DNA of 32,096 nucleotides from positions 1 through 32,096 of the forward strand of contig JAIQEU010000060.1 of the NCBI GenBank assembly GCA_020073665.1. Reading direction: 5' to 3'. The stretch is from Terriglobia bacterium. GTDB taxonomy: Bacteria; Acidobacteriota; Terriglobia; Terriglobales; Acidobacteriaceae. Shown piece after piece: positions 5,173 to 32,003 of the stretch. The position numbers and the translations under genes are program-made. Below the pieces are notes generated by a model. The model was not told where the DNA came from. It saw nothing but the letters and a program-made list of their open reading frames with translations, and made no database searches. Within the stretch, counting starts at the first letter, position 1, and each line of letters opens with the position of its first letter.

Positions 5173-5436
5173 ATTGCGAATCCACTCTTGCGAGATGCAG
5201 CCCGTGAGTCGAGCATGCGCCCCAGTCTTGGGTAGGCGTCGAAGGTGCAAATAAGGGCTAAACTGATTCTTCGCATGTTGAAATGACGTTTGATAGGCAC
5301 GACCTTTCGTTCCTTTTCTCCCAAGCTGCGAATCCTCAGAATTGTGCATGATGTCTGATTTGGATCAGCTAGAACTTTTTCCACAGCCCGCAAAACACTC
5401 CAGTGTTAACAGGACTTCGCTGCCAGAAGATTTTCC

Positions 5437-5464
5437 TTGTACCGCTGGGAAAAGTTGCTATCAT
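5437..5464 (+). promoter_or_regulatory. Predicted promoter of the methyltransferase gene
   Basis: TTGTAC (5437-5442) and TATCAT (5459-5464) are separated by 16 bp, a reasonable sigma-70-type pair. The predicted start of transcription near 5471 leaves a ~27-base leader before the ATG at 5498, which carries a GGGAG ribosome binding site at 5488-5492. The promoter lies inside the repeat array described separately. Confidence 0.5.
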
Positions 5465-5489
5465 CTCTGCTATCAGAATTTCCCAGCGG
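5442..5489 (+). promoter_or_regulatory. Inverted and direct repeats over the methyltransferase promoter (candidate operator)
   Basis: A perfect 11-bp inverted repeat, CCGCTGGGAAA (5442-5452) and TTTCCCAGCGG (5479-5489), encloses two exact copies of TGCTATCA (5456-5463 and 5468-5475) spaced 12 bp start to start. The array spans the -10 region and ends at the ribosome binding site. The methyltransferase just downstream begins with a ribbon-helix-helix domain, a DNA-binding fold that commonly recognises short repeats of this kind, so autoregulation is a natural reading. Confidence 0.65.
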
Positions 5490-5497
5490 GAGCCGAC

Positions 5498-6703
5498 ATG
5501 GGTCAATTGCTAGTGCGCAACGTGCCAGAGGAAGTCCGGCACTGGATTGAGCAGGGTCGTCAACAGCACAACATGTCGCAGCAGGAGTTTATTCTCTCCA
5601 TTCTGCGACGTGCCAGTGTAGCAGAGCAGACTCCGCTGTTGCCCTTTGAATCGCCAGTGCAAGAGATCGCTGTTCCTGATTCTCTCCCATTCACGTTTGT
5701 CGATCTGTTCGCCGGGATCGGAGGTTTCCGTTTCGCTCTATCGGCGCTTGGGGGTCGGTGCCTTTTCTCGTGCGAGTGGGACAGATATTCGCAGAAGACC
5801 TACAAGGCATGGTTCGGCGAGACGCCTCATGGCGACATCCGCCAGATCAAACCGAAGGACATCCCCGATCATGATGTCTTGGCTGCGGGATTCCCCTGTC
5901 AGCCATTCTCCATCGCAGGCGTCTCTAAGAAGAAGAGTCTAGGTCACGCTCACGGATTCAAATGTCTCACGCAGGGTACGTTGTTCTTCAACATCGTCTC
6001 CATCGTCGAGGTCAAGAGACCCCCAGTCCTATTCCTTGAGAATGTCAAGAATCTTCAGTCGCACGATGGCGGTCGGACTTGGAAAACGATCACGGAGTCG
6101 TTGAAGGAACTCGATTACGTGGTTCGCTCGAAGGTCATTGATGCGGCGGGATGGGTTCCTCAACATCGGGAGCGAATCTACATTGTCTGCTTTGACAGAA
6201 AAGTGTTTGGGGACGATCCGCAGTTCAGTTTTCCCGACCCACCCGCCCAGACACCAAAGTTCAGGGACATCCTCGAAGAGAACCCAGATCGGAAGTACAC
6301 TCTGACCAGCCATCTCTGGGAGTATTTGCAGGATTACGCAAGGCGTCACCGAGAAAAGGGCAACGGCTTCGGTTTCGGCATTGCTGATCTCGACGGAGTC
6401 AGCAGGACGCTGAGTGCCCGATATTACAAAGACGGTTCTGAAATTCTGATAAAGCAAGATCGGAGAACGCCTCGACGACTGACACCGACAGAGTGTGCTC
6501 GTCTGATGGGGTTCCCCGGCGACAAGAAGATCGTGGTCTCCGATACGCAGGCGTATCGTCAGTTTGGCAATGCTGTCGTGCCTAAGGTTGCGAAGGCGGT
6601 GGGTGAACAGATCATCGCAACGCTCCGCTGGCATTTGATGCGGAGTGGCTGTCTGGTCAAAGCACGACAGAACGGTCATGCAGAACAACCAATAGCGAGT
6701 TAA
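5498..6703 (+). CDS. C5-cytosine DNA methyltransferase with N-terminal ribbon-helix-helix domain
   Basis: The protein transfers a methyl group to carbon 5 of cytosine. From the ATG at 5498 it is 401 aa. Residues 1-40 (LLVRNVPEEVRHWIEQGR onward) resemble a FitA-type ribbon-helix-helix DNA-binding domain as found in antitoxins. The catalytic domain follows: motif I FVDLFAGIGGFR (68-79), motif IV GFPCQPFS with catalytic C134, motif VI ENV (181-183), motif VIII QHRER (222-226), target-recognition region about 240-325, and motif X FGNAV (356-360). An in-frame TTG at 5342 would add 52 residues, but the predicted promoter, repeats and GGGAG site favour 5498. It is followed after 1 base by an EcoRII-type endonuclease, so the expected target is CCWGG or a relative, as for Dcm and M.EcoRII. 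The fused domain probably represses its own promoter and thereby times methylation against restriction. Confidence 0.9.
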   Translation: MGQLLVRNVPEEVRHWIEQGRQQHNMSQQEFILSILRRASVAEQTPLLPFESPVQEIAVPDSLPFTFVDLFAGIGGFRFALSALGGRCLFSCEWDRYSQKTYKAWFGETPHGDIRQIKPKDIPDHDVLAAGFPCQPFSIAGVSKKKSLGHAHGFKCLTQGTLFFNIVSIVEVKRPPVLFLENVKNLQSHDGGRTWKTITESLKELDYVVRSKVIDAAGWVPQHRERIYIVCFDRKVFGDDPQFSFPDPPAQTPKFRDILEENPDRKYTLTSHLWEYLQDYARRHREKGNGFGFGIADLDGVSRTLSARYYKDGSEILIKQDRRTPRRLTPTECARLMGFPGDKKIVVSDTQAYRQFGNAVVPKVAKAVGEQIIATLRWHLMRSGCLVKARQNGHAEQPIAS

Positions 6704-7874: not shown

Positions 7875-8279
7875 ATGGATGTACACACTCCCAAGCAACG
7901 CAGCTTCAATATGTCGCGGATTAGGGGCAAGGACACCAGCCCTGAGATGAAAGTGAGGCATTTGCTCCACTCCCTCGGATACCGATACAGACTGCACGTT
8001 CGCGATCTGCCGGGTTGCCCAGACATTGTGATGCCGAAACATCGGGTACTCATTTTCGTCCACGGCTGCTTCTGGCACATGCACAAGTGTCGCTTCGGCA
8101 GGGTCGTGCCGAAGACGAATACCGAGTTCTGGCAGACAAAGAGATCGGGAAATACGGAAAGGGACAGACGCAACGCCAGACAACTGCGGAAGGTCGGCTG
8201 GACTGTCCTCACGGTGTGGGAATGCGAGACTCGCAATCAGGAAAAGCTCAAGAGCAGACTCGAATCTCGACTCCCCTAG
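7875..8279 (+). CDS. vsr: Very short patch repair endonuclease (Vsr)
   Basis: The 134-aa product is a full-length Vsr nicking endonuclease. These enzymes cut 5' of a T in T:G mismatches produced by deamination of 5-methylcytosine at Dcm/EcoRII-like sites and so protect methylated motifs from C-to-T mutation. The N-terminus MDVHTPKQRSFNMSRIRGKD, the catalytic LPGCPD (D50), FVHGCFWH with H64 and H69, the zinc-site cysteines, EFWQTK, and TVWECE near the C-terminus are all canonical. Its ATG follows the EcoRII-type gene stop with no gap. Vsr genes commonly accompany C5 methyltransferases, which supports a CCWGG-like target for this island. Confidence 0.95.
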   Translation: MDVHTPKQRSFNMSRIRGKDTSPEMKVRHLLHSLGYRYRLHVRDLPGCPDIVMPKHRVLIFVHGCFWHMHKCRFGRVVPKTNTEFWQTKRSGNTERDRRNARQLRKVGWTVLTVWECETRNQEKLKSRLESRLP

Positions 8280-8378: not shown

Positions 8379-9785
8379 ATGCCAAGAAACAATCGCTCAC
8401 TAGCATCGGTTTTGCGGGAGTTTCATAAATTAGGAGTGAGCCGAGTGCTCGTGAAAGAACTGGCACTCAACGATAACTCGAAAAACCAGATTTACGTTGG
8501 CAGAGGATTCCAAACTCTGAATCTCATACCTGTCCGGGACGTATCTCCCAAAGAGCCGACAAATAACGAGAAGCCAGTTAACTTCAAAGCGAAACTGGAT
8601 TGGACGTGGTTGAGCGACGGTCAACACGTCGTAGCTCCCCATGCTCAACTCATCTTGTATCCGAAATACCCAGAGGTTCGGATTTCGGGGTTCCTGCGTG
8701 ACTGTCCGGTAGACAACCTCGCAGGTTCGCTCATGAATAGCCGTGCTAAAAATCGAGTTCTGTTCGTGGGAATAGCCAAACGAACGAAGATTTACGCATG
8801 TGTGGGAGGGCGTACAAGCCAGATCGCATCGGACTGGAACCGATACAAACGAAAAGCCACGGACTGGCAGGTGGTATCGCAAGGTGTAAGGCATTGGTCA
8901 CTGGTCGGAGCACGATTGACGAAGGGTCGTGCGGGGTTCTATCGGCTGGAGTTGATCGAAGGCAAGCTCGAAGTGGGATGTATTCGTGAGATTCTCGAAA
9001 AACTCCAAGAACTTCATCGAGAAGGATGGCACAACGCCAAACGCCTCACGCCATCCGGCATCATTGTGCCGTCTTCTGGAAGAAACTCAGGCGGGAATAC
9101 TCTGGAGTGCCTCTTCGAAATCGCTTCCAATCCGAGCAAAGAACCAGACTACAAAGGCTGGGAATTGAAAAACCTAGATGCTCAGACCGAGCGTCTGACC
9201 CTGATGACATCCGAGCCTAAAGACGGTCTGTACAAGCTCATGGGAGCAGGCGAGTTTGTAAGGCGATTCGGTTATCCAGATGAGACAAATCCCCGCCGTA
9301 GAAACTTCGCATCACCACACATCATTTCGAAGCGAAACCCGACAACCAAGTTAACTCTGAGCATCGAAGGATACAGCCGTCGCTCTAAGAAAATCACGAG
9401 TAACGATGGCGGAATCGTTTTGAAAACTGATAGGGGAGTGGTCGCTGCGAAGTGGAGATTTACGGACTTGATGTTCGACTGGAACCGAAAACACTCCCGA
9501 GTAGTCTTCGTGCCGTCCTCGTCCGCAGTCTTTGCTGGACGAAAGTACAACTTTCTTCAGAATGTGGCGATTGCAGAACAGAGTGACTTCTTGCTTTTTC
9601 TGGAGGCGTTAAGCGATAGAAAGGTGTATTTCGATCCGGGTACGAATGTTGTCTACACACGTGGCAGAGCAAAGGTACATCCGAGAAGCCAATTTCGCAT
9701 CAAACTCGAAGACTTGAATTCTCTGTATCGCACTTTCAATTGGGTGAGTGTCTGTGAACCGATTAAAGTCCGCAGACAGGGATGA
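8379..9785 (+). CDS. MvaI/BcnI-type restriction endonuclease (468 aa)
   Basis: The C-terminal half carries the hallmark of the MvaI/BcnI nuclease family: GGNTLECLFEI with E243, then PDYKGWELK giving D257 and E262-x-K264. Characterised members act as monomers that nick each strand in turn at CCWGG (MvaI) or CCSGG (BcnI) and are about 240 aa. This protein is nearly twice that, with an extra ~220-residue N-terminal region, possibly a DNA-binding or regulatory domain. It lies on the same strand as the methyltransferase, EcoRII-type enzyme and Vsr, with no methyltransferase of its own. The single C5 methylase may therefore have to protect against two unrelated nucleases. The start is uncertain: the AAGG before ATG 8379 abuts the codon, too close for a good ribosome binding site. 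Confidence 0.85.
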   Translation: MPRNNRSLASVLREFHKLGVSRVLVKELALNDNSKNQIYVGRGFQTLNLIPVRDVSPKEPTNNEKPVNFKAKLDWTWLSDGQHVVAPHAQLILYPKYPEVRISGFLRDCPVDNLAGSLMNSRAKNRVLFVGIAKRTKIYACVGGRTSQIASDWNRYKRKATDWQVVSQGVRHWSLVGARLTKGRAGFYRLELIEGKLEVGCIREILEKLQELHREGWHNAKRLTPSGIIVPSSGRNSGGNTLECLFEIASNPSKEPDYKGWELKNLDAQTERLTLMTSEPKDGLYKLMGAGEFVRRFGYPDETNPRRRNFASPHIISKRNPTTKLTLSIEGYSRRSKKITSNDGGIVLKTDRGVVAAKWRFTDLMFDWNRKHSRVVFVPSSSAVFAGRKYNFLQNVAIAEQSDFLLFLEALSDRKVYFDPGTNVVYTRGRAKVHPRSQFRIKLEDLNSLYRTFNWVSVCEPIKVRRQG

Positions 9786-25175: not shown

Positions 25176-25533
25176 TCGACTCCGGCAACGGCTGTATGCC
25201 GGGTCATAGCCCCGCCCTCACCCTTCGCCCTTTGTTCGAGACCCTTCCCCCGGCTCCTCGTTCATTTCAAACTGGCATTTTCATTATAAAACATATAAGT
25301 CATTGATATACAAAGACTTGCACTTCGCAAATGAGTTGCGAAGCTGAAATTCACGAAGAAAAATGTCTACCGAGTATTTATGTAGAGCGGTGCTGACACA
25401 GACCGCTGGCTGGTCAACCAGCCGCACAACAATCGGACGCCACTCGATCAAAAGTAGGGTCGGTAACTCAAGGCGGCGAGGACGGTGCGGATGCTGATAC
25501 GAACCAGCACTTCACAAAAGACGGAGGTCAACG
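25176..25533. other. Gene-free region with AT-rich tract and hairpins
   Basis: I find no convincing gene here. An AT-rich tract (about 25264-25320) is followed by a perfect inverted repeat, CTTCGCAA-N5-TTGCGAAG (25323-25343), then tandem hairpins: AGCGGT/ACCGCT (25386-25407, 10-base loop) and GGCTGG-TCAA-CCAGCC (25408-25423). The region precedes the replication operon and probably holds its promoter and leader, and perhaps part of an origin. Confidence 0.5.
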
Positions 25534-26220
25534 ATGGAAATCGTAGACAACCAACAACAGCAAATGACCGACACGGTCGCCACCGGGCTGCTGCCGATGG
25601 ATCTGACTGACCACACAATCGACGAGATCGTGGTCATGCAGTGCATCGCAATCGCAGAGCAGTGGCGCACGTTCAAGAAGTTCTTCGACGAGAACAAGCA
25701 CTGGCTTGTCGAGTTGAAGAAGCGCATGGGCGCACGGCAAGGCGTCGAGGGCAAGAAGTTCTTGTTCAACGGCGTCCACCTTAGCTGGACTGAGTTCGTC
25801 CAGCACTACATGAAGGTGACGCCCGCATACATGCGGATGCTTCTTGGCGATAAGCCGGAACCCAAAGAGGGCGACGGCGAGAAGCCTGAGAAGAAGGTCT
25901 ACACCCAGACGCAGTTCGACGAGGCGGTTGACAAAGCCTACGAGGAAGGCGTCGAGGCAGCGCGTGACGCTCAGGACGAAGCAGAGGATGAGGAAGCGGA
26001 AGATGAAGTCCTCACCCAAGGCGAGAAGGATCATATCGCAGCAGTGCCAAGCCGCAAGGCAGCAATCATTGCAGACGAGATTTTCCAGACGCTTTCAGCC
26101 GACCGTGGGATGAACTCCTACGACATTGGCGAGGTCATCGGCGAGTTGCAGAAGCTCAACAAGCCAAGCACCAAGCCGCAACCGACTCGCTTCGACCAAC
26201 CAACGGCACACGCAGCTTAA
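25534..26220 (+). CDS. Hypothetical acidic protein, first gene of replication operon (228 aa)
   Basis: CGGAGG lies about 8 bases before ATG 25534. The first ~110 residues are helical and aromatic-rich (AIAEQWRTFKKFFDENKHWL, LSWTEFVQHYMKVTPAYMRM), reminiscent of phage and plasmid proteins that precede replication genes. They are followed by a strongly acidic linker (AQDEAEDEEAEDEVLTQ) and a helical C-terminus ending in a Pro/Thr tail. No function can be assigned. It is the leading gene of a plus-strand run through to 30620. Confidence 0.7.
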   Translation: MEIVDNQQQQMTDTVATGLLPMDLTDHTIDEIVVMQCIAIAEQWRTFKKFFDENKHWLVELKKRMGARQGVEGKKFLFNGVHLSWTEFVQHYMKVTPAYMRMLLGDKPEPKEGDGEKPEKKVYTQTQFDEAVDKAYEEGVEAARDAQDEAEDEEAEDEVLTQGEKDHIAAVPSRKAAIIADEIFQTLSADRGMNSYDIGEVIGELQKLNKPSTKPQPTRFDQPTAHAA

Positions 26221-26233
26221 ACAGCAACGGTAA

Positions 26234-26288
26234 GGACGCATGTGGTTGCAGGGGAAGAAACACTGCGAACGACAAAGCCTGTGCGTCC
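26234..26288 (+). ncRNA. Structured leader between two operon genes
   Basis: GGACGCATGTGG (26234-26245) pairs with CCTGTGCGTCC (26278-26288) to give an 11-bp helix with one bulge and two G-U pairs. Inside it, TTGCAG (26246-26251) pairs with CTGC-G-AA (26263-26269). The loop contains GAAGAAAC. It is not a hammerhead (no CUGANGA). It could be an mRNA processing or regulatory element in the 95-base gap before 26316; I cannot match it to a known class. Confidence 0.4.
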
Positions 26289-26315
26289 CGAATAGCCCAT
26301 ATAGAGGAATCAACC

Positions 26316-26741
26316 ATGAACACTGATCGCAAGACAGCAGCACTGAAGGCAGCAGCAACCAAGGCTGCCAAGAAGCAGGCGGCACGTGGGCGTGTCATCG
26401 CTCGCAACGACGCCTACAACCAAAACCTGACCAACACAGCACGCCAGTACCTATATGACTCGGTACAGGAGATCAAGAGCGAGTACGAGGCGACGATCAA
26501 CGCCGCCTTGGACGAAGCGGAGATCGCAGCCTCCGAGTCCTTGCGCAACCTAGCCGGAGAGTTCGGCTGGTCGCTGGTGCAGGCAGCTTCCGAGGATGAC
26601 TACATCATGCTCGACAACTCGGTCGCACAGACCCTGCTCGACATCGTGTGGTTCGACGAGGAAGAAGAGTTCGAAGAACTCGAAGCCTGTGTTGAGTCAG
26701 CTAACACGCTGTATCCCGACACGGAGGTACAACCAGCCTGA
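26316..26741 (+). CDS. Hypothetical acidic helical protein (141 aa)
   Basis: AGAGGAA precedes ATG 26316 by about 6 bases. The N-terminal 30 residues are Ala/Lys-rich (KTAALKAAATKAAKKQAARG) and look like a DNA-contacting tail; the rest is helical and acidic (YEATINAALDEAEIAASESL, WFDEEEEFEELEACVESA). No family is recognised. The stop codon TGA (26739-26741) is followed after one base by the first hammerhead ribozyme, so the 3' end of this message would be generated by RNA self-cleavage. Confidence 0.65.
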   Translation: MNTDRKTAALKAAATKAAKKQAARGRVIARNDAYNQNLTNTARQYLYDSVQEIKSEYEATINAALDEAEIAASESLRNLAGEFGWSLVQAASEDDYIMLDNSVAQTLLDIVWFDEEEEFEELEACVESANTLYPDTEVQPA

Positions 26742-26742
26742 A

Positions 26743-26801
26743 GGTCGAAACGCCGTAACACCGACGCGGCGTCCGCGTGTAATGCACGCGCTGACGAGAC
26801 C
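26743..26801 (+). ncRNA. Hammerhead ribozyme 1 (stem-II-open permutation)
   Basis: All parts of a hammerhead are present. Stem II 3' strand GGTC (26743-26746) is followed by the core GAA (26747-26749). Stem III pairs ACGCCG (26750-26755) with CGGCGT (26767-26772), with an 11-base loop. C17 is at 26773, so cleavage falls after it. Stem I pairs CGCGTG (26774-26779) with CACGCG (26785-26790), with a 5-base loop. The core CTGACGA is at 26791-26797, and GACC (26798-26801) closes a perfect 4-bp stem II. A-U at the base of stem III and the GUC cleavage triplet are as required. It lies just after the stop of the 141-aa gene. Confidence 0.92.
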
Positions 26802-26831
26802 AGAGGTTACGCAGATAAGGGGGATCAACAC

Positions 26832-27023
26832 ATGTCACGGATCAAAGAGTATTACCAAGACGAACACGGAAACTGGCTGCCGGAGGCGAGAGCAATTCTT
26901 GCCAAGACAACTGCAACTCCAGACGCTACCAAGGAGACGCAAACTGTGCTCCGCATGAACGAAGTCGAGGTGCGACCGGAGTGCCTGCCCCAAGAAATCG
27001 AGGAGGAACTCGAAACGCCGTAA
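26832..27023 (+). CDS. Small hypothetical protein between two ribozymes (63 aa)
   Basis: AAGGGGGAT precedes ATG 26832. The product starts MSRIKEYYQDEHGNWLPEAR and ends in an acidic tail (CLPQEIEEELETP). It has no known domain. Its last codons (Glu-Thr-Pro-stop) are themselves the GAA-ACG-CCG-TAA that forms the 5' side of the second hammerhead ribozyme, so coding and ribozyme constraints overlap. Self-cleavage at 27032/27033 would leave the coding sequence intact with a 9-base 3' tail. Confidence 0.65.
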   Translation: MSRIKEYYQDEHGNWLPEARAILAKTTATPDATKETQTVLRMNEVEVRPECLPQEIEEELETP

Positions 27024-27060
27024 TGCGGCGTCCACTGGTTGTGCCAGTGCTGATGAGACC
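27005..27060 (+). ncRNA. Hammerhead ribozyme 2 (stem-II-open permutation)
   Basis: Same architecture as copy 1. The core GAA is at 27012-27014. Stem III pairs ACGCCG (27015-27020) with CGGCGT (27026-27031), with the 5-base loop TAATG. C17 is at 27032. Stem I pairs CACTGG (27033-27038) with CCAGTG (27044-27049), with loop TTGTG. The core CTGATGA is at 27050-27056, followed by GACC (27057-27060). Stem II is weaker: GG (27005-27006) and TC (27010-27011) can pair with GACC only with a three-base AAC bulge, probably because this strand is protein-coding. Compared with copy 1, stem I bases differ at several positions yet remain fully paired. The ribosome binding site of the next gene (AAGGAG, 27063-27068) follows immediately. 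Confidence 0.88.
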
Positions 27061-27076
27061 AAAAGGAGAACTAACA

Positions 27077-27331
27077 ATGACGGCACAGGAAGAAGCAAAG
27101 AAAATCATCACGCGTGTAGACCTTAACCACATGCTGGACGCGATGGTCGCACGCCGCGACGACTTGCTCGTCCAGTACATCGAGATGCACCCGGAACTGC
27201 GGCTTGACCAGATCGCGGAGAAGTTCGCGCTCACGCAGCCCGAAGTGTCCAGAATCATGAAACGGCACGGTGTGCAACGCCCGCGTGGATGGGCGTCACC
27301 CGCAGCAAGAAAGGTAACTATCGAGCAGTAA
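27077..27331 (+). CDS. Small helix-turn-helix protein (84 aa)
   Basis: ATG 27077 has AAGGAG 8 bases upstream, directly after the second ribozyme; a longer frame from 26981 would read through the ribozyme and is rejected. The C-terminal part LRLDQIAEKFALTQPEVSRI and the following MKRHGV form a clear helix-turn-helix like those in sigma-like and TrpR/Homeodomain-like regulators, so it probably binds DNA. The N-terminal half is helical (VDLNHMLDAMVARRDDLLVQ). It precedes the primase gene by 20 bases and may regulate this operon or the nearby repeats. Confidence 0.7.
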   Translation: MTAQEEAKKIITRVDLNHMLDAMVARRDDLLVQYIEMHPELRLDQIAEKFALTQPEVSRIMKRHGVQRPRGWASPAARKVTIEQ

Positions 27332-27351: not shown

Positions 27352-29640
27352 ATGTCTAACAGCAACGCTCCCCTCGCGCATGCTCCACAGTATGCGGCGA
27401 TGGGCATACCGATCATCGCACTCGCACCGGGCACCAAGATTCCGTTCAAAGAAATGGAAGGCTGGCAGCACGGCGGCATTGCGACCACCGATCCGAAGCA
27501 AATCGAGAAGTGGAACAGTCAGTTCCCCAACGCCAACTACGCGCTGTGCGCCTTCGCGGTTGAAGACGGCAACTGCTTCCTTGAGTTCGATCAAGGCAAG
27601 CTGTCAGAAATCTGCGAGAAGTACGGACAGCCATTGCCACGTACTCGTGTGCATGTTTCTGGCAACGGCGGGAAGCACTTCATCTTCAAGCAGACGCCTG
27701 AGTCCATTGCGCTAGGCAACCGCAGCGCAGTCCGTGGCGGCAAGGAATGGTTCTCATTCCGCTCCAACAACAAGTATCTGGTGGCTCCGGGGTCTGTGCA
27801 TCCAAACGGAAACATCTACCGTGTGTTCCCCGGCTTCGACATCGAGCCGACGCCTATCCCTACATGGTTGGTGCGGGCGATTGACGAACTCGCCGTAAAA
27901 CCGAAGCCACAGCCCAAGGGCAGCGTCGAAGTACATGAAGCATTCGACTTCGATGACCTGATGGAGTTTCACAACATCGACATCGTTGGCGTCAAGGATG
28001 ACGTCTGGCACATCTGCACAGAGTGTCCCGGCGTTGACCGACGCCACGAACAGTCCGTGCTGACTGGCTTCTACTATGACGGATCGTCCTTCGGATGGTC
28101 ATGCTTTGCGGCGGGCTGCCCGCTGAATGGGAAGTCAATAGGCGAGGTGCTGAAGTTCCTCAACGACAAGAAGGGCGAACCGTACAAGGGGATCATCTGG
28201 TCTGATCCTAACGAGATTGATTGGGACAAGTTTGGCGTCGAGATTCTGGATGCCGACGAGATGGTGCAGGAGGAGTCCGTACACAGCAATGCCACGGCGG
28301 TCACAGCCGTCCCTTTTGCCGGGGATCAGCCTTCCACCGTTCAAACTCCTCCTGCTCCGGTGTGCGACGTAGCTGATTTCGATCAACTGATCGCCGAACG
28401 CGCAAACCAGTTGAATCCAGCGCCGTTGCCCGTGCCGGATGACATCGGCTCGATAGTGAACGCGCCGAAGGCGGAAGGACTCGCCTTCGACGTGCGGGCG
28501 CTGTACGGCAAGGCGGGAGAGATCGCTCGCAACACGACGCTGCCGCTTGGCTGGACATATCCCGGCGTTCTCGCCGTTGCCTCCGCACTTAACATCAAGG
28601 ATCGTGACGGACATGTCCGCTCCAACATTTACTGTGTGAACATCGCCCCAGTCGGTACGGCGAAGACCGTCGTGGCAGAAGCCATCGAGAAATCCATCTT
28701 CATGCCACTGAACAGAACGACCTACACCACGCCCGCCTCTGATCGTGGGCTGTGCAAGATGATCGGCAAGGATGGCAACACCCTGCTTTTGGTTGAAGAC
28801 GAGATGCGTGCGGTCTTCGGAAAATGTCAAATACCCAACTCAACGCTCGCGCAGACTTTTTGCAAGTTGTGGTCTAAGGACAACGCGGGCGTTGCCGACA
28901 AGAAGGGCGCAGACTCCTGCAACGGCAAGCTCTGCGTCTTGGGAAACATCGCATGCGAAGACGCCGCCGACTTCTCGAAAATTGTCGGGTCAAGCACCGT
29001 TACTGGTTTTTATGATCGCTTGCTGCTCGGTTACGACACGACGCCAGTGAAGTACCGCCCGTTGAACATCAAGCCTTCGTCCTTCACGGATGAGATGGTC
29101 GTCCGCGTCCCGACATGGGTCTGGGACGCCAAGGATGCTTGGGTCGGCGAGAATATCGCACGCCGCCGTCTGGGCGAACACGCCCTACGTGTGGCGCTTG
29201 TGACCGCAGCACTGAACGGCGACAAAGAGATCACACGTGACTGCTTCGTCGCCGCGCTGCGCTTCGTGGAGTGGCAAGAGCGATTGCGTGCCGAGTTCCG
29301 CCCCGGTCTAGCGGAGACGAAGGACGCCGAGTGCCTTGAAGCGGTGTATGCAGCATTGAAGGCACAGCGTGAGCACCAGAAGAAGACTGGCGAATATCCG
29401 AAAGGTGCTGATCTCGTGGGTCACAAACAGGAAGAATTGTGGAAGCTCATCAACTACAGCAAGGTTCTCTCCTCGAAGAATCTGTATCGAAAATACGGCA
29501 AGCTGGTGACCAGCGTGAAATCTACGCTGGTAGAGGACGGGTTCATCGAGTTCGTCAAGGAAGCGGATTACGACGAACAGAGCAATGAGAAGGAGCGGAA
29601 AAAGAAGACCCCATACTGCGTGCTGAAGAAGAATTTGTAA
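27352..29640 (+). CDS. Primase-polymerase fused to DUF3987-type ATPase/helicase (762 aa)
   Basis: Residues ~5-180 form a bifunctional primase/polymerase (Prim-Pol) domain: the metal-binding motif appears as FLEFD (E78, D80) and is followed by SGNGGKHFIF (103-112) with the conserved histidine. A cysteine cluster (C222, C225, C251, C256) suggests a zinc site. Residues ~375-690 are a DUF3987-like P-loop domain: a shortened Walker A PVGTAKT (433-439) and Walker B TLLLVEDE (477-484). Such proteins replicate phages and integrative elements by combining priming and unwinding. The usual first metal ligand Asp is Glu here, and the Walker A is compact, features to check. It is the central replication gene of the element. 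Confidence 0.85.
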   Translation: MSNSNAPLAHAPQYAAMGIPIIALAPGTKIPFKEMEGWQHGGIATTDPKQIEKWNSQFPNANYALCAFAVEDGNCFLEFDQGKLSEICEKYGQPLPRTRVHVSGNGGKHFIFKQTPESIALGNRSAVRGGKEWFSFRSNNKYLVAPGSVHPNGNIYRVFPGFDIEPTPIPTWLVRAIDELAVKPKPQPKGSVEVHEAFDFDDLMEFHNIDIVGVKDDVWHICTECPGVDRRHEQSVLTGFYYDGSSFGWSCFAAGCPLNGKSIGEVLKFLNDKKGEPYKGIIWSDPNEIDWDKFGVEILDADEMVQEESVHSNATAVTAVPFAGDQPSTVQTPPAPVCDVADFDQLIAERANQLNPAPLPVPDDIGSIVNAPKAEGLAFDVRALYGKAGEIARNTTLPLGWTYPGVLAVASALNIKDRDGHVRSNIYCVNIAPVGTAKTVVAEAIEKSIFMPLNRTTYTTPASDRGLCKMIGKDGNTLLLVEDEMRAVFGKCQIPNSTLAQTFCKLWSKDNAGVADKKGADSCNGKLCVLGNIACEDAADFSKIVGSSTVTGFYDRLLLGYDTTPVKYRPLNIKPSSFTDEMVVRVPTWVWDAKDAWVGENIARRRLGEHALRVALVTAALNGDKEITRDCFVAALRFVEWQERLRAEFRPGLAETKDAECLEAVYAALKAQREHQKKTGEYPKGADLVGHKQEELWKLINYSKVLSSKNLYRKYGKLVTSVKSTLVEDGFIEFVKEADYDEQSNEKERKKKTPYCVLKKNL

Positions 29641-30692: not shown

Positions 30693-31847
30693 CTACGAAT
30701 GAGTGGATTTTGCGAGCGCCTTACCTTTTCCCCAGATGGCATCGACCTTTGCCTTCACAATGTCGGACTGAGCCTTGGCTAAGTACCTCATCGCCGACTC
30801 TAACGACTTCCACCCCATGAGTCTTTGCACAGTCTTCAAGTCCATCCCGCCGTGCAGCAGCCGTGTTGCGCAGGTGCCGCGAAATTTGTGGACATAGGCA
30901 TTCTCAATTTCTGCTGCGGCTGCGATCTCCTGACAATCGTCCCACGAATGAACCCAGCGATGCCCGGTGCTTGTCGGGAACAGATAACGGCTGCTGCGGG
31001 GCAAGGACTTCAAAATTTCGACAAGTTCATGGGGAATTTCAACCGTTCGCTGCTGCCACGTCTTAGGCATAAAATCGCCCTTTGCCTCAACACGCAGAGT
31101 GCCTGCCTCAAGATCAACGCAGTCCCAAGTCAGATTCTCCAGTTCCTTTCGGCGCAAACCTGACATGAGATAAGCCTTGAACACCGCGTACTGGAACGGA
31201 TTGCAGTGCTCAAAGAACTTCTTCAACTCATCCTCGGTATAGACTTCAGGTTCCTTCTCTTCATACTTACCGTCCCGTTCGGTCACGATCCCGTCACCGG
31301 GTTTTTGCTTTTGCACAGCCCGCAAGAACTGTCCGACCCTTAACATCTTGTTTGATGCCGTGCGATCCGAGCGTTTACGGTCGATGAGCCATTGGCGGTA
31401 TTTCAGCAGGTGGAGTCGCTTAATCTGGGAGATGATGTTGGTTTGGCAGAAGGCGTGGAACTCCTCAAGCGTCTGCTTCATCAGCGCGTGAGACCGTGGG
31501 CGGTTAACGAGGCGGTATTCCTCAAGGTAGCGGGGCATCTCATAAACCATCAGAAGCGGTGGCGGGTCGTCCTGAATTTTGATTCCGTTCGCTTTTGCCG
31601 TCAGCAGGGATTCCCGCAACTCGCACATGCGGGTTGCCATAGACAGAGACGAGCACTTCGTCCACACCGTCTTCGCGCCGTCGCGGTGTCTGACGTAGTA
31701 AGACGCGTTTGGATGATGCTCCTCGTGGGAATTGACCAGCGCCCAGCCCGGCTTGGGTTTGTTGTTTTTGCCGATCACGGGCTTGCAATAACGCCATCCT
31801 GCTGACGTTTTGCAATACAGCCAGAGGCTCGCTTTGCGGTTTGCCAT
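30693..31847 (-). CDS. int: Tyrosine recombinase (integrase)
   Basis: The 384-aa protein is a phage-type integrase. The N-terminal ~110 residues form an arm-type region (ASLWLYCKTSAGWRYCKPVI), residues ~110-195 the core-binding SAM-like domain, and the C-terminal part the catalytic domain with R232 (SGLRRKEL), K256 (VEAKGD), H320-x-x-R323 (HKFRGT), W346 (LMGWKS) and nucleophile Y355 (AMRYLA). The start ATG at 31847 lies 80 bp from the 3' end of the tRNA-fMet gene, and the gene reads away from the tRNA. That arrangement points to integration into the tRNA 3' end. The neighbouring 31848-31926 gap should contain part of the attachment site and the int promoter. Confidence 0.93.
   Translation of the reverse strand: MANRKASLWLYCKTSAGWRYCKPVIGKNNKPKPGWALVNSHEEHHPNASYYVRHRDGAKTVWTKCSSLSMATRMCELRESLLTAKANGIKIQDDPPPLLMVYEMPRYLEEYRLVNRPRSHALMKQTLEEFHAFCQTNIISQIKRLHLLKYRQWLIDRKRSDRTASNKMLRVGQFLRAVQKQKPGDGIVTERDGKYEEKEPEVYTEDELKKFFEHCNPFQYAVFKAYLMSGLRRKELENLTWDCVDLEAGTLRVEAKGDFMPKTWQQRTVEIPHELVEILKSLPRSSRYLFPTSTGHRWVHSWDDCQEIAAAAEIENAYVHKFRGTCATRLLHGGMDLKTVQRLMGWKSLESAMRYLAKAQSDIVKAKVDAIWGKGKALAKSTHS

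Positions 31848-31926: not shown

Positions 31927-32003
<77 letters not shown>

Follow-up and report, generated by a model that had tools for sequence, protein, structure and literature searches.

Why should a replication operon carry a hammerhead ribozyme on either side of a single 63-aa gene? The question is raised by a contig of a Terriglobia bacterium (JAIQEU010000060.1), in which two hammerhead-like sequences lie in tandem upstream of the gene of a Prim-Pol replication protein. A preliminary description of this DNA had proposed that the pair cleaves a polycistronic message into units and that the arrangement may be undescribed. Our best explanation, to which we assign a probability of roughly 60%, is that a mobile element carries two type II hammerheads in its replication operon, which would cut the polycistronic RNA in cis and thereby separate the messages.

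The operon and its mobile element

The window, that is the whole stretch of 32,096 nucleotides that was analysed, is one entire contig of the host genome. The genes follow in the order 228-aa ORF, 141-aa ORF, hammerhead copy 1, 63-aa ORF, hammerhead copy 2, HTH-like gene, Prim-Pol gene and metallophosphoesterase-like gene, and beyond the latter an integrase gene and a tRNA gene are found on the opposite strand (Table 1). The match of the 762-aa protein to PF09250 bears out the earlier description of a replication operon with a Prim-Pol protein. The 84-aa protein encoded upstream of it matches the PHROGs families phrog_14131 "DNA binding protein" (E = 7.3e-6) and phrog_2339 "HTH DNA binding protein" (E = 0.0024), and its Pfam matches are under the cut-off. 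The 141-aa ORF has no match in Pfam or PHROGs; for the 63-aa protein, searches of Pfam, PHROGs, phage records (E ≤ 0.1) and 297 further genomes from the same order yielded no relative. A consensus search for promoters between positions 25200 and 29900 found none, with 1.6 expected by chance.

The tRNA gene adjoining the integrase gene is likely the integration site of the element. Because the contig carries genes for a methylase, a MvaI/BcnI-type nuclease, a KwaB-like protein and also an SRAP protein, we regard the window as likely to hold an integrated mobile element with defence-type cargo. The cargo includes the KwaB-like (Kiwa) protein at 261–1166, the C5 cytosine methylase at 5342–6703 and the MvaI/BcnI-type restriction nuclease at 8379–9785.

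The gap of 95 nt after the 228-aa ORF holds no hammerhead according to the strict scan and to the covariance model R1 described below, and Rfam at E ≤ 5 returned there only a 13.1-bit match to an sRNA family. A 7-bp stem (GGACGCA/TGCGTCC) is found at 26225–26300, before the 141-aa gene; its fold z-score is −1.71 and it has no notable Rfam match.

Table 1. Features of the replication operon and the adjoining integration genes, in window coordinates
Feature	Position	Strand	Basis and remarks
228-aa ORF, upstream in the same gene run	25534–26220	+	
141-aa ORF	26316–26741	+	stop codon begins at −8 relative to the copy 1 GAAA
Hammerhead copy 1, type II	26743–26801	+	strict core scan, R1 64.2 bits, RF02276 25.3 bits; stem II GGTC/GACC, GAAA, stem III ACGCCG/CGGCGT, C17, stem I CGCGTG/CACGCG, loop TAATG, CTGACGA
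Predicted released RNA, 259 nt, 63-aa frame alone	26774–27032	+	inferred from the cut sites
63-aa ORF between the cuts	26832–27023	+	ribosome site AAGGGGG 26817–26823 (read by eye)
Hammerhead copy 2, type II	27008–27060	+	strict core scan, R1 51.0 bits, RF02276 31.8 bits; stem II TC/GA, stem III ACGCCG/CGGCGT, stem I CACTGG/CCAGTG, loop TTGTG, CTGATGA
84-aa HTH-like DNA-binding protein	27077–27331	+	ribosome site AAGGAG 27063–27068 directly after copy 2 (by eye)
762-aa Prim-Pol replication protein	27352–29640	+	PF09250 E = 1.7e-24, DUF3987 E = 9.8e-8, PHROGs DNA primase
Tyrosine integrase	30693–31847	−	Pfam PF00589 E = 4e-24, PHROGs integrase
tRNA gene adjoining the integrase gene	31930–32003	−	Rfam tRNA 65.1 bits

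Two type II hammerheads around the 63-aa gene

Read 5′ to 3′, each copy consists of the stem II 5′ strand, GAAA, the hairpin of stem III, UC, the hairpin of stem I, CUGANGA and the stem II 3′ strand; stems I and III are closed by loops and stem II is open. The core elements of the type II permutation, namely CUGANGA, GAAA and UH with the A15.1–U16.1 pair, are exact in both, and the strict core scan places the core at 26747–26797 in copy 1 (GAAA to CTGACGA) and at 27012–27056 in copy 2. Stem III has 6 bp and stem I 7 bp in both copies, which in copy 1 includes the closing pair of stem III and the closing U–G of stem I, and the two copies differ in stem II, with 4 bp in the first and only 2 bp in the second (strict scan). 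The stem I stretches are 17 nt long and carry UNNNG loops, and an A stands beside stem II in each copy. Cleavage is predicted at 26773/26774 in copy 1 and at 27032/27033 in copy 2.

In most of these points we come to the same view as the preliminary description, which had reported a co-oriented pair in the stem-II-open permutation, a common stem III, a stem I that remains paired in spite of base changes, and new 5′ ends at 26774 and 27033; both cores are indeed exact on one strand. Two details have to be amended. The orientation is the same as stated, but the starts of the copies are 265 bp apart and not 270 bp, and of the two copies said to lie exactly between genes only copy 1 does so, beginning one nucleotide after the stop codon of the 141-aa gene. 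Copy 2 is partly inside the 63-aa gene: it covers the final codons, and the stop codon (27021–27023) sits in the loop of its stem III.

Whereas 100 dinucleotide shuffles yielded no match to a search pattern with the common stem III, the window yielded two. The Rfam model RF02276 (Hammerhead_II) aligns end to end with both copies, but the check by Rfam hammerhead models that had been suggested earlier turned out negative, as neither copy (25.3 and 31.8 bits, respectively) reaches the gathering cut-off of 37 bits. Among 300 family genomes the same model has matches at E ≤ 0.1 in 20, the genome of the window included, with 22.1–32.7 bits in the other 19, and at all 19 of these loci the strict scan found no strict core. 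The Rfam score was dropped as proof, since matches of up to 32.7 bits occur where the strict scan finds no core, and for the same reason a covariance model of our own was built. This model, R1, is based on 47 hammerheads with a short stem I, taken from viral and bacterial contigs and not from the window; its alignment A1 comprises 47 of 58 candidates, which had already been thinned for similarity and filtered for a short stem I and at least four pairs in stem II. A covariation count on A1 was discarded as evidence, as the rows had been picked for perfect pairing and pair counts are therefore circular.

R1 scores copy 1 with 64.2 bits and copy 2 with 51.0 bits, and in the 5.42-Mb host genome (62 contigs, 150 candidates scored) these two are the sole matches at E ≤ 10, the E-values of R1 being rough because the calibration was short. 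In 398 family genomes, at least 38 bits are reached at ten places in seven genomes, the two of the window included, and the next match below has 26 bits; the place in G366 matches by construction, as it is the same stretch as L187, a row of R1. As far as sequence can tell, we regard the pair as confirmed, genuine type II hammerheads.

The folding figures are equilibrium predictions without tertiary contacts. They yield a fold energy with z = −0.80 for copy 1, which is not striking and is matched by 39 of 200 shuffles, and a moderate one with z = −2.77 for copy 2 (2 of 200). The predicted probability of stem II in copy 1 is 0.98 in 66 nt and 0.02 in 151 nt. In copy 2 it is 0.0 at both lengths, the value for stem I declines to 0.25 at 151 nt, and the minimum-energy fold of the copy alone is a shifted pairing that invades the core. 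These predictions would disfavour the active form in context, which we take as a warning, above all for copy 2.

Relatives in the family genomes

The nearest relative of the Prim-Pol protein among the 398 family genomes (G101, 43% identity over residues 11–759) is encoded behind an HTH-like gene, the same order as in the window, and the 11 kb read around it contain no hammerhead. The comparison with related elements that had been put forward as a check thus shows no conservation of the pair, as far as the best Prim-Pol homologue and the searches for the 63-aa protein go. Strict hammerheads were likewise found in none of the 29 Prim-Pol neighbourhoods L154–L182, and R1 on 16 such neighbourhoods gave one match of 12.9 bits. 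As no hammerhead lies near the G101 gene or in L154–L182, the ribozymes are not needed for the HTH/Prim-Pol module. No relatives of the Prim-Pol protein were found in viral contigs, and two, partial and distant, in plasmids; a blastn comparison of phage records with two hammerhead arrays and the operon of the window yielded no similar record.

Elsewhere in the family, a good and a damaged hammerhead flank one gene in G070, the product of which looks secreted as read from the translation, and in G091 one hammerhead stands between two genes, the second of which is ATPase-like by the same kind of reading. Further damaged hammerheads are present in G205 and G285.

Placement of hammerheads in viral contigs

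A first viral set was collected by a type II scan with one stem III sequence; at least 120 stretches match, and the set is a sample of them. Co-oriented arrays are many in this set, with up to eight hammerheads in one stretch among the matches listed (strict scan). The placement count used 183 non-redundant type II hammerheads with flanks, those too near the ends of stretches being left out. Among the matches listed, 158 of the 183 have a frame that is open for at least 60 codons and ends within −25 to +30 nt of the GAAA, compared with 39/183 on the antisense strand and 344/1830 at random positions of the same strand. If in addition a frame of at least 40 codons has to start 8–90 nt behind the core, the numbers are 153/183, 26/183 (antisense) and 239/1830 (random), again among the matches listed. 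The start test alone is lax (177/183 against 112/183 antisense and 1199/1830 random, among the matches listed).

The stop codon is at position −5 or −6 in 85 of the 183 hammerheads, at +9 in two and at +11 in one (among the matches listed), and the stops of the window copies, at −8 for copy 1 and at +9 for copy 2, fall within the viral range. None of 107 loci has hammerheads on both strands, and 32 of the 107 have two or more on one strand (among the matches listed). In a second viral type II set, with many members from related contigs, the share with both stop and start is lower (37/58); here stops inside the hammerhead occur at +10, +12 and +12, and at +19 in a group of related contigs.

The genes downstream of the first-set hammerheads are small (median about 95 aa, n = 170, among the matches listed). 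For the set A2, which retains 150 of these 170 genes, frames of fewer than 50 or more than 600 codons were left out. Pfam recognizes 23 families in these 150 genes, including DUF932 (4), HU-like DNA-binding proteins (3), ArdA (2), ArdC (1) and ParB (1), and PHROGs recognizes 94 families (both among the matches listed).

When the same stem III letters were searched in the three permutations, 25, 14 and 2 viral stretches matched for types II, I and III, respectively. One or more strict type II hammerheads occur in 24 of the 25 type II stretches (second set), and confirmed type I hammerheads are present in 12 of the 14 type I stretches (14 of 18 matches), of which L251 and L253 look like duplicates. 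Beside 129 seed matches of the first set there are 64 type II, one type III and no type I hammerheads among the matches listed, a count biased by the choice of these contigs for type II. The idea that type II is a requirement for intercistronic placement was weakened, as type I hammerheads are found at stop/start junctions too (11/14, with a stop/start window somewhat wider than that for type II). Four seemingly related contigs (L226, L232, L241 and L248) have tandem arrays of seven or eight type II hammerheads, and in L241 and L248 two hammerheads start only about 75 nt apart.

A proposed subclass with short stem I

Hammerheads with a stem I stretch of 16–18 nt are here called class B; of the 116 others in the first set, 112 have a longer stem I and are called class A. 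Among the matches listed of the first set, 68 of 70 class B members have at least four stem II pairs, only the first of which was fixed by the search, and all 14 of the second set have them. Their loops have U as the first and G as the last base in 56 of 70 cases (first set, among the matches listed) and in 9 of 14 cases (second set). The 4-bp stem II is preceded on its 5′ side by an A in 82 of 86 cases, and since this also holds for 34 of the 36 in which no stop codon overlaps, the A is not just a by-product of the stop codon.

With the Perreault consensus as a guide, complementarity of at least 4 bp between loop I and the tail that follows stem II was taken as the sign of a pseudoknot. In the first set such complementarity is seen in 15/70 class B members against a shuffled rate of 0.25, and in 110/116 of the others against 0.56 (among the matches listed). 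The contrast is weaker in the second set, with 4/14 against 0.32 for class B and 31/34 against 0.76 for the others. These statistics apply to the class; each window copy has only a distant 4-nt complement between loop I and tail, as found by eye. If the loop–tail pseudoknot is indeed missing from class B, the class may use a different tertiary contact; many hammerheads do not use the pseudoknot, as stated in the sections considered of Perreault et al. 2011 (PMC3088659). The traits which we propose for the class are a 4-bp stem II, an unpaired A on its 5′ side, a short stem I that is mostly capped by UNNNG, and no sign of the loop–tail pseudoknot. Copy 1 conforms to its relatives; copy 2 with its 2 bp breaks the stem II rule and is an outlier compared with the 68/70 among the matches listed.

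In a sample of members tested, Rfam passes 3 of 39 from class B and 16 of 26 from class A, and among ten further sources, the window included, one class B member passes (L183, 37.6 bits). As the short-stem-I class is mostly missed in this sample, their number in viral and mobile DNA is probably underestimated wherever annotation relies on Rfam.

As a tentative proposal, which we consider possible and somewhat less than an even bet, the pair would belong to a distinct and largely unannotated class B that is situated at stop/start junctions of viral and mobile DNA and gives each gene a hairpin-capped message, with copy 2 tied to translation as well by the stop codon in its stem III. None of the papers listed in the literature searches deals with class B. 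Novelty may lie in class B and in the stop codon within stem III. The contigs L131 and L145 have several hammerheads each with only one counted stem II pair and a very short stem I (13–14 nt in L131), which are perhaps a third class.

Proposed processing of the message and alternative readings

We consider intercistronic processing the best explanation of the pair because 158 of 183 viral type II hammerheads stand at the end of open frames, compared with about 20% in the controls (among the matches listed). From motif, pairing, position and relatives we infer cleavage, product fate and benefit as follows. Both hammerheads would cut the RNA in cis during transcription, copy 1 after the 141-aa gene and copy 2 at 9 nt after the stop codon of the 63-aa gene. 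Three products would result, the middle one a 259-nt message encoding only the 63-aa protein, the others an upstream message and a downstream message for the HTH-like and Prim-Pol proteins. In the predicted 259-nt RNA the 63-aa frame is intact and its stop codon ends 9 nt before the 3′ end, and the predicted HTH/Prim-Pol message has a leader of 44 nt after the cut of copy 2. The predicted cut positions therefore agree with the earlier claim that the 63-aa frame is placed on its own RNA and that a 5′ end arises 44 nt before the HTH gene.

In the type II permutation each upstream product would keep stem III at its 3′ end and each downstream product stem I at its 5′ end, so that every new end would be a hairpin, namely a 5′-OH stem I hairpin and a stem III hairpin with a 2′,3′-cyclic phosphate. 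Synthetic hammerhead insulators uncouple the stability and translation of neighbouring parts, and the hairpin ends should do the same for the neighbouring genes here. With a stem II of 2 bp and a stem III that is covered by a ribosome during termination, copy 2 should cut more slowly than copy 1; it would probably cut while translation has not yet arrived at the end of the gene, or in the interval between two ribosomes.

The position of the stop codon also allows a reading in which copy 2 is a switch that cuts only when translation does not proceed to the end of the 63-aa gene, and thus sets the level or timing of the HTH and Prim-Pol proteins. The stop at 27021–27023 in the stem III loop is in favour of it, as are the stops within hammerheads elsewhere (+9, +9 and +11 among the 183 of the matches listed, and the cases of the second set). 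Nevertheless, coupling to translation is not a general rule, because among the matches listed 85 of 183 stops are at −5 or −6 and few inside the hammerhead, and we consider such a switch unlikely. It is distinctly unlikely, in our estimate, that the ribozymes are passengers, that is selfish or decaying remnants which spread with mobile modules and have no regulated role here: such remnants would account for the missing hammerhead at the nearest Prim-Pol relative, the weak stem II of copy 2, the damaged copies in related genomes and the widely varying flanking genes, but not for two cores without deviation, a stem I that stays paired though its sequence differs between the copies, and a viral stop/start placement far above the controls (among the matches listed).

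Alternatively, the 259-nt middle piece could be ligated to a circular RNA carrying the 63-aa frame by a chimeric hammerhead composed of the downstream half of copy 1 and the upstream half of copy 2. Two direct copies around one unit are the geometry of retrozymes and viroid-like RNAs, according to the sections considered of PMC6155905. Moreover, adjacent viral copies are compatible in stem II above the between-contig rate (short-stem-I 10/20 against 0.30, the rest 39/52 against 0.41, among the matches listed), but shared descent alone would give this compatibility. Ten of the 20 neighbours in the short class cannot pair as chimeras and 14 of 20 have both own stems (among the matches listed), the chimera of the window would have a stem II of only 2 bp, and in the sections considered Perreault et al. 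detected neither spliced nor circular products (PMC3088659); a circle therefore appears very unlikely to us. A chance resemblance, or a structural element that is not cut, is hardly credible. It could appeal to the Rfam scores under the gathering cut-off and to the unexceptional fold energy of copy 1, and it is opposed by the shuffles without a match (0 of 100) and by 64.2 and 51.0 bits from the independent model R1, with the rest of the 5.42-Mb genome free of matches at E ≤ 10.

Relation to known systems

The message processing that we favour has a published precedent. As far as the sections considered of Perreault et al. 2011 (PMC3088659) go, multiple hammerheads flank individual prophage genes, it is proposed that long phage transcripts are cut into mRNAs of operon or gene length, and cleavage of prophage arrays is reported in vitro, with a single array also cleaved in E. 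coli. The suggestion that the arrangement may be undescribed hence cannot be upheld. Like the window, these prophage clusters have several close hammerheads, commonly of type II, around single genes or short blocks (PMC3088659, same sections), and the pair of the window, which encloses the 63-aa ORF in DNA with integrase, tRNA and Prim-Pol genes, is a case of at least two hammerheads around a gene in mobile DNA. In contrast to the clusters, the window pair belongs to a Prim-Pol operon, and none such is found in the sections of PMC3088659 compared. A further difference is that the window copies are without an evident near pseudoknot between loop I and tail, that copy 2 overlaps a stop codon, and that activity here is predicted. 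The tandem arrangement and the idea of processing are thus already published, and the pair adds a further case, in the Prim-Pol operon of a probably acidobacterial element.

With Rfam RF02276 the window copies share permutation and core, with scores under the cut-off of 37. The proposed cut of the window resembles RiboJ-type insulators in that a 5′ hairpin would be left ahead of the ribosome site; the insulator is, however, a man-made part, whereas the window pair is natural and lies between genes. Retrozymes and viroid-like circular RNAs have in common with the window that two hammerheads bound one RNA unit (PMC6155905, sections considered). Retrozymes carry type I or III hammerheads; both window copies are of type II, and the released RNA would be coding.

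The biological reason for hammerhead associations is still called unknown in the part considered of a 2023 paper (PMC10085705). The sharp geometry of stop codon, ribozyme and start codon makes a role of hammerheads in phages and mobile elements cheaply testable by cut sites, hairpin ends and per-gene stability.

Other ribozyme-bearing elements

In G165 a structured element of about 315 nt occurs twice with 82% identity, behind unrelated genes (L217:6078–6400, and on the minus strand of L216 from read-strand position 7890). It has a class B hammerhead at its start and a strong hairpin at its end, and its inner helix differs between the copies and still pairs. Rfam at E ≤ 1 gives only a sub-threshold hammerhead for this element, which is perhaps a noncoding RNA released by the hammerhead. 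Finally, Type-P5 twister ribozymes are found at L188:2593–2648 and L150:135–187, on the same strand as a type II hammerhead and about 2 kb away from it, so that two ribozyme classes share one mobile stretch in both cases.
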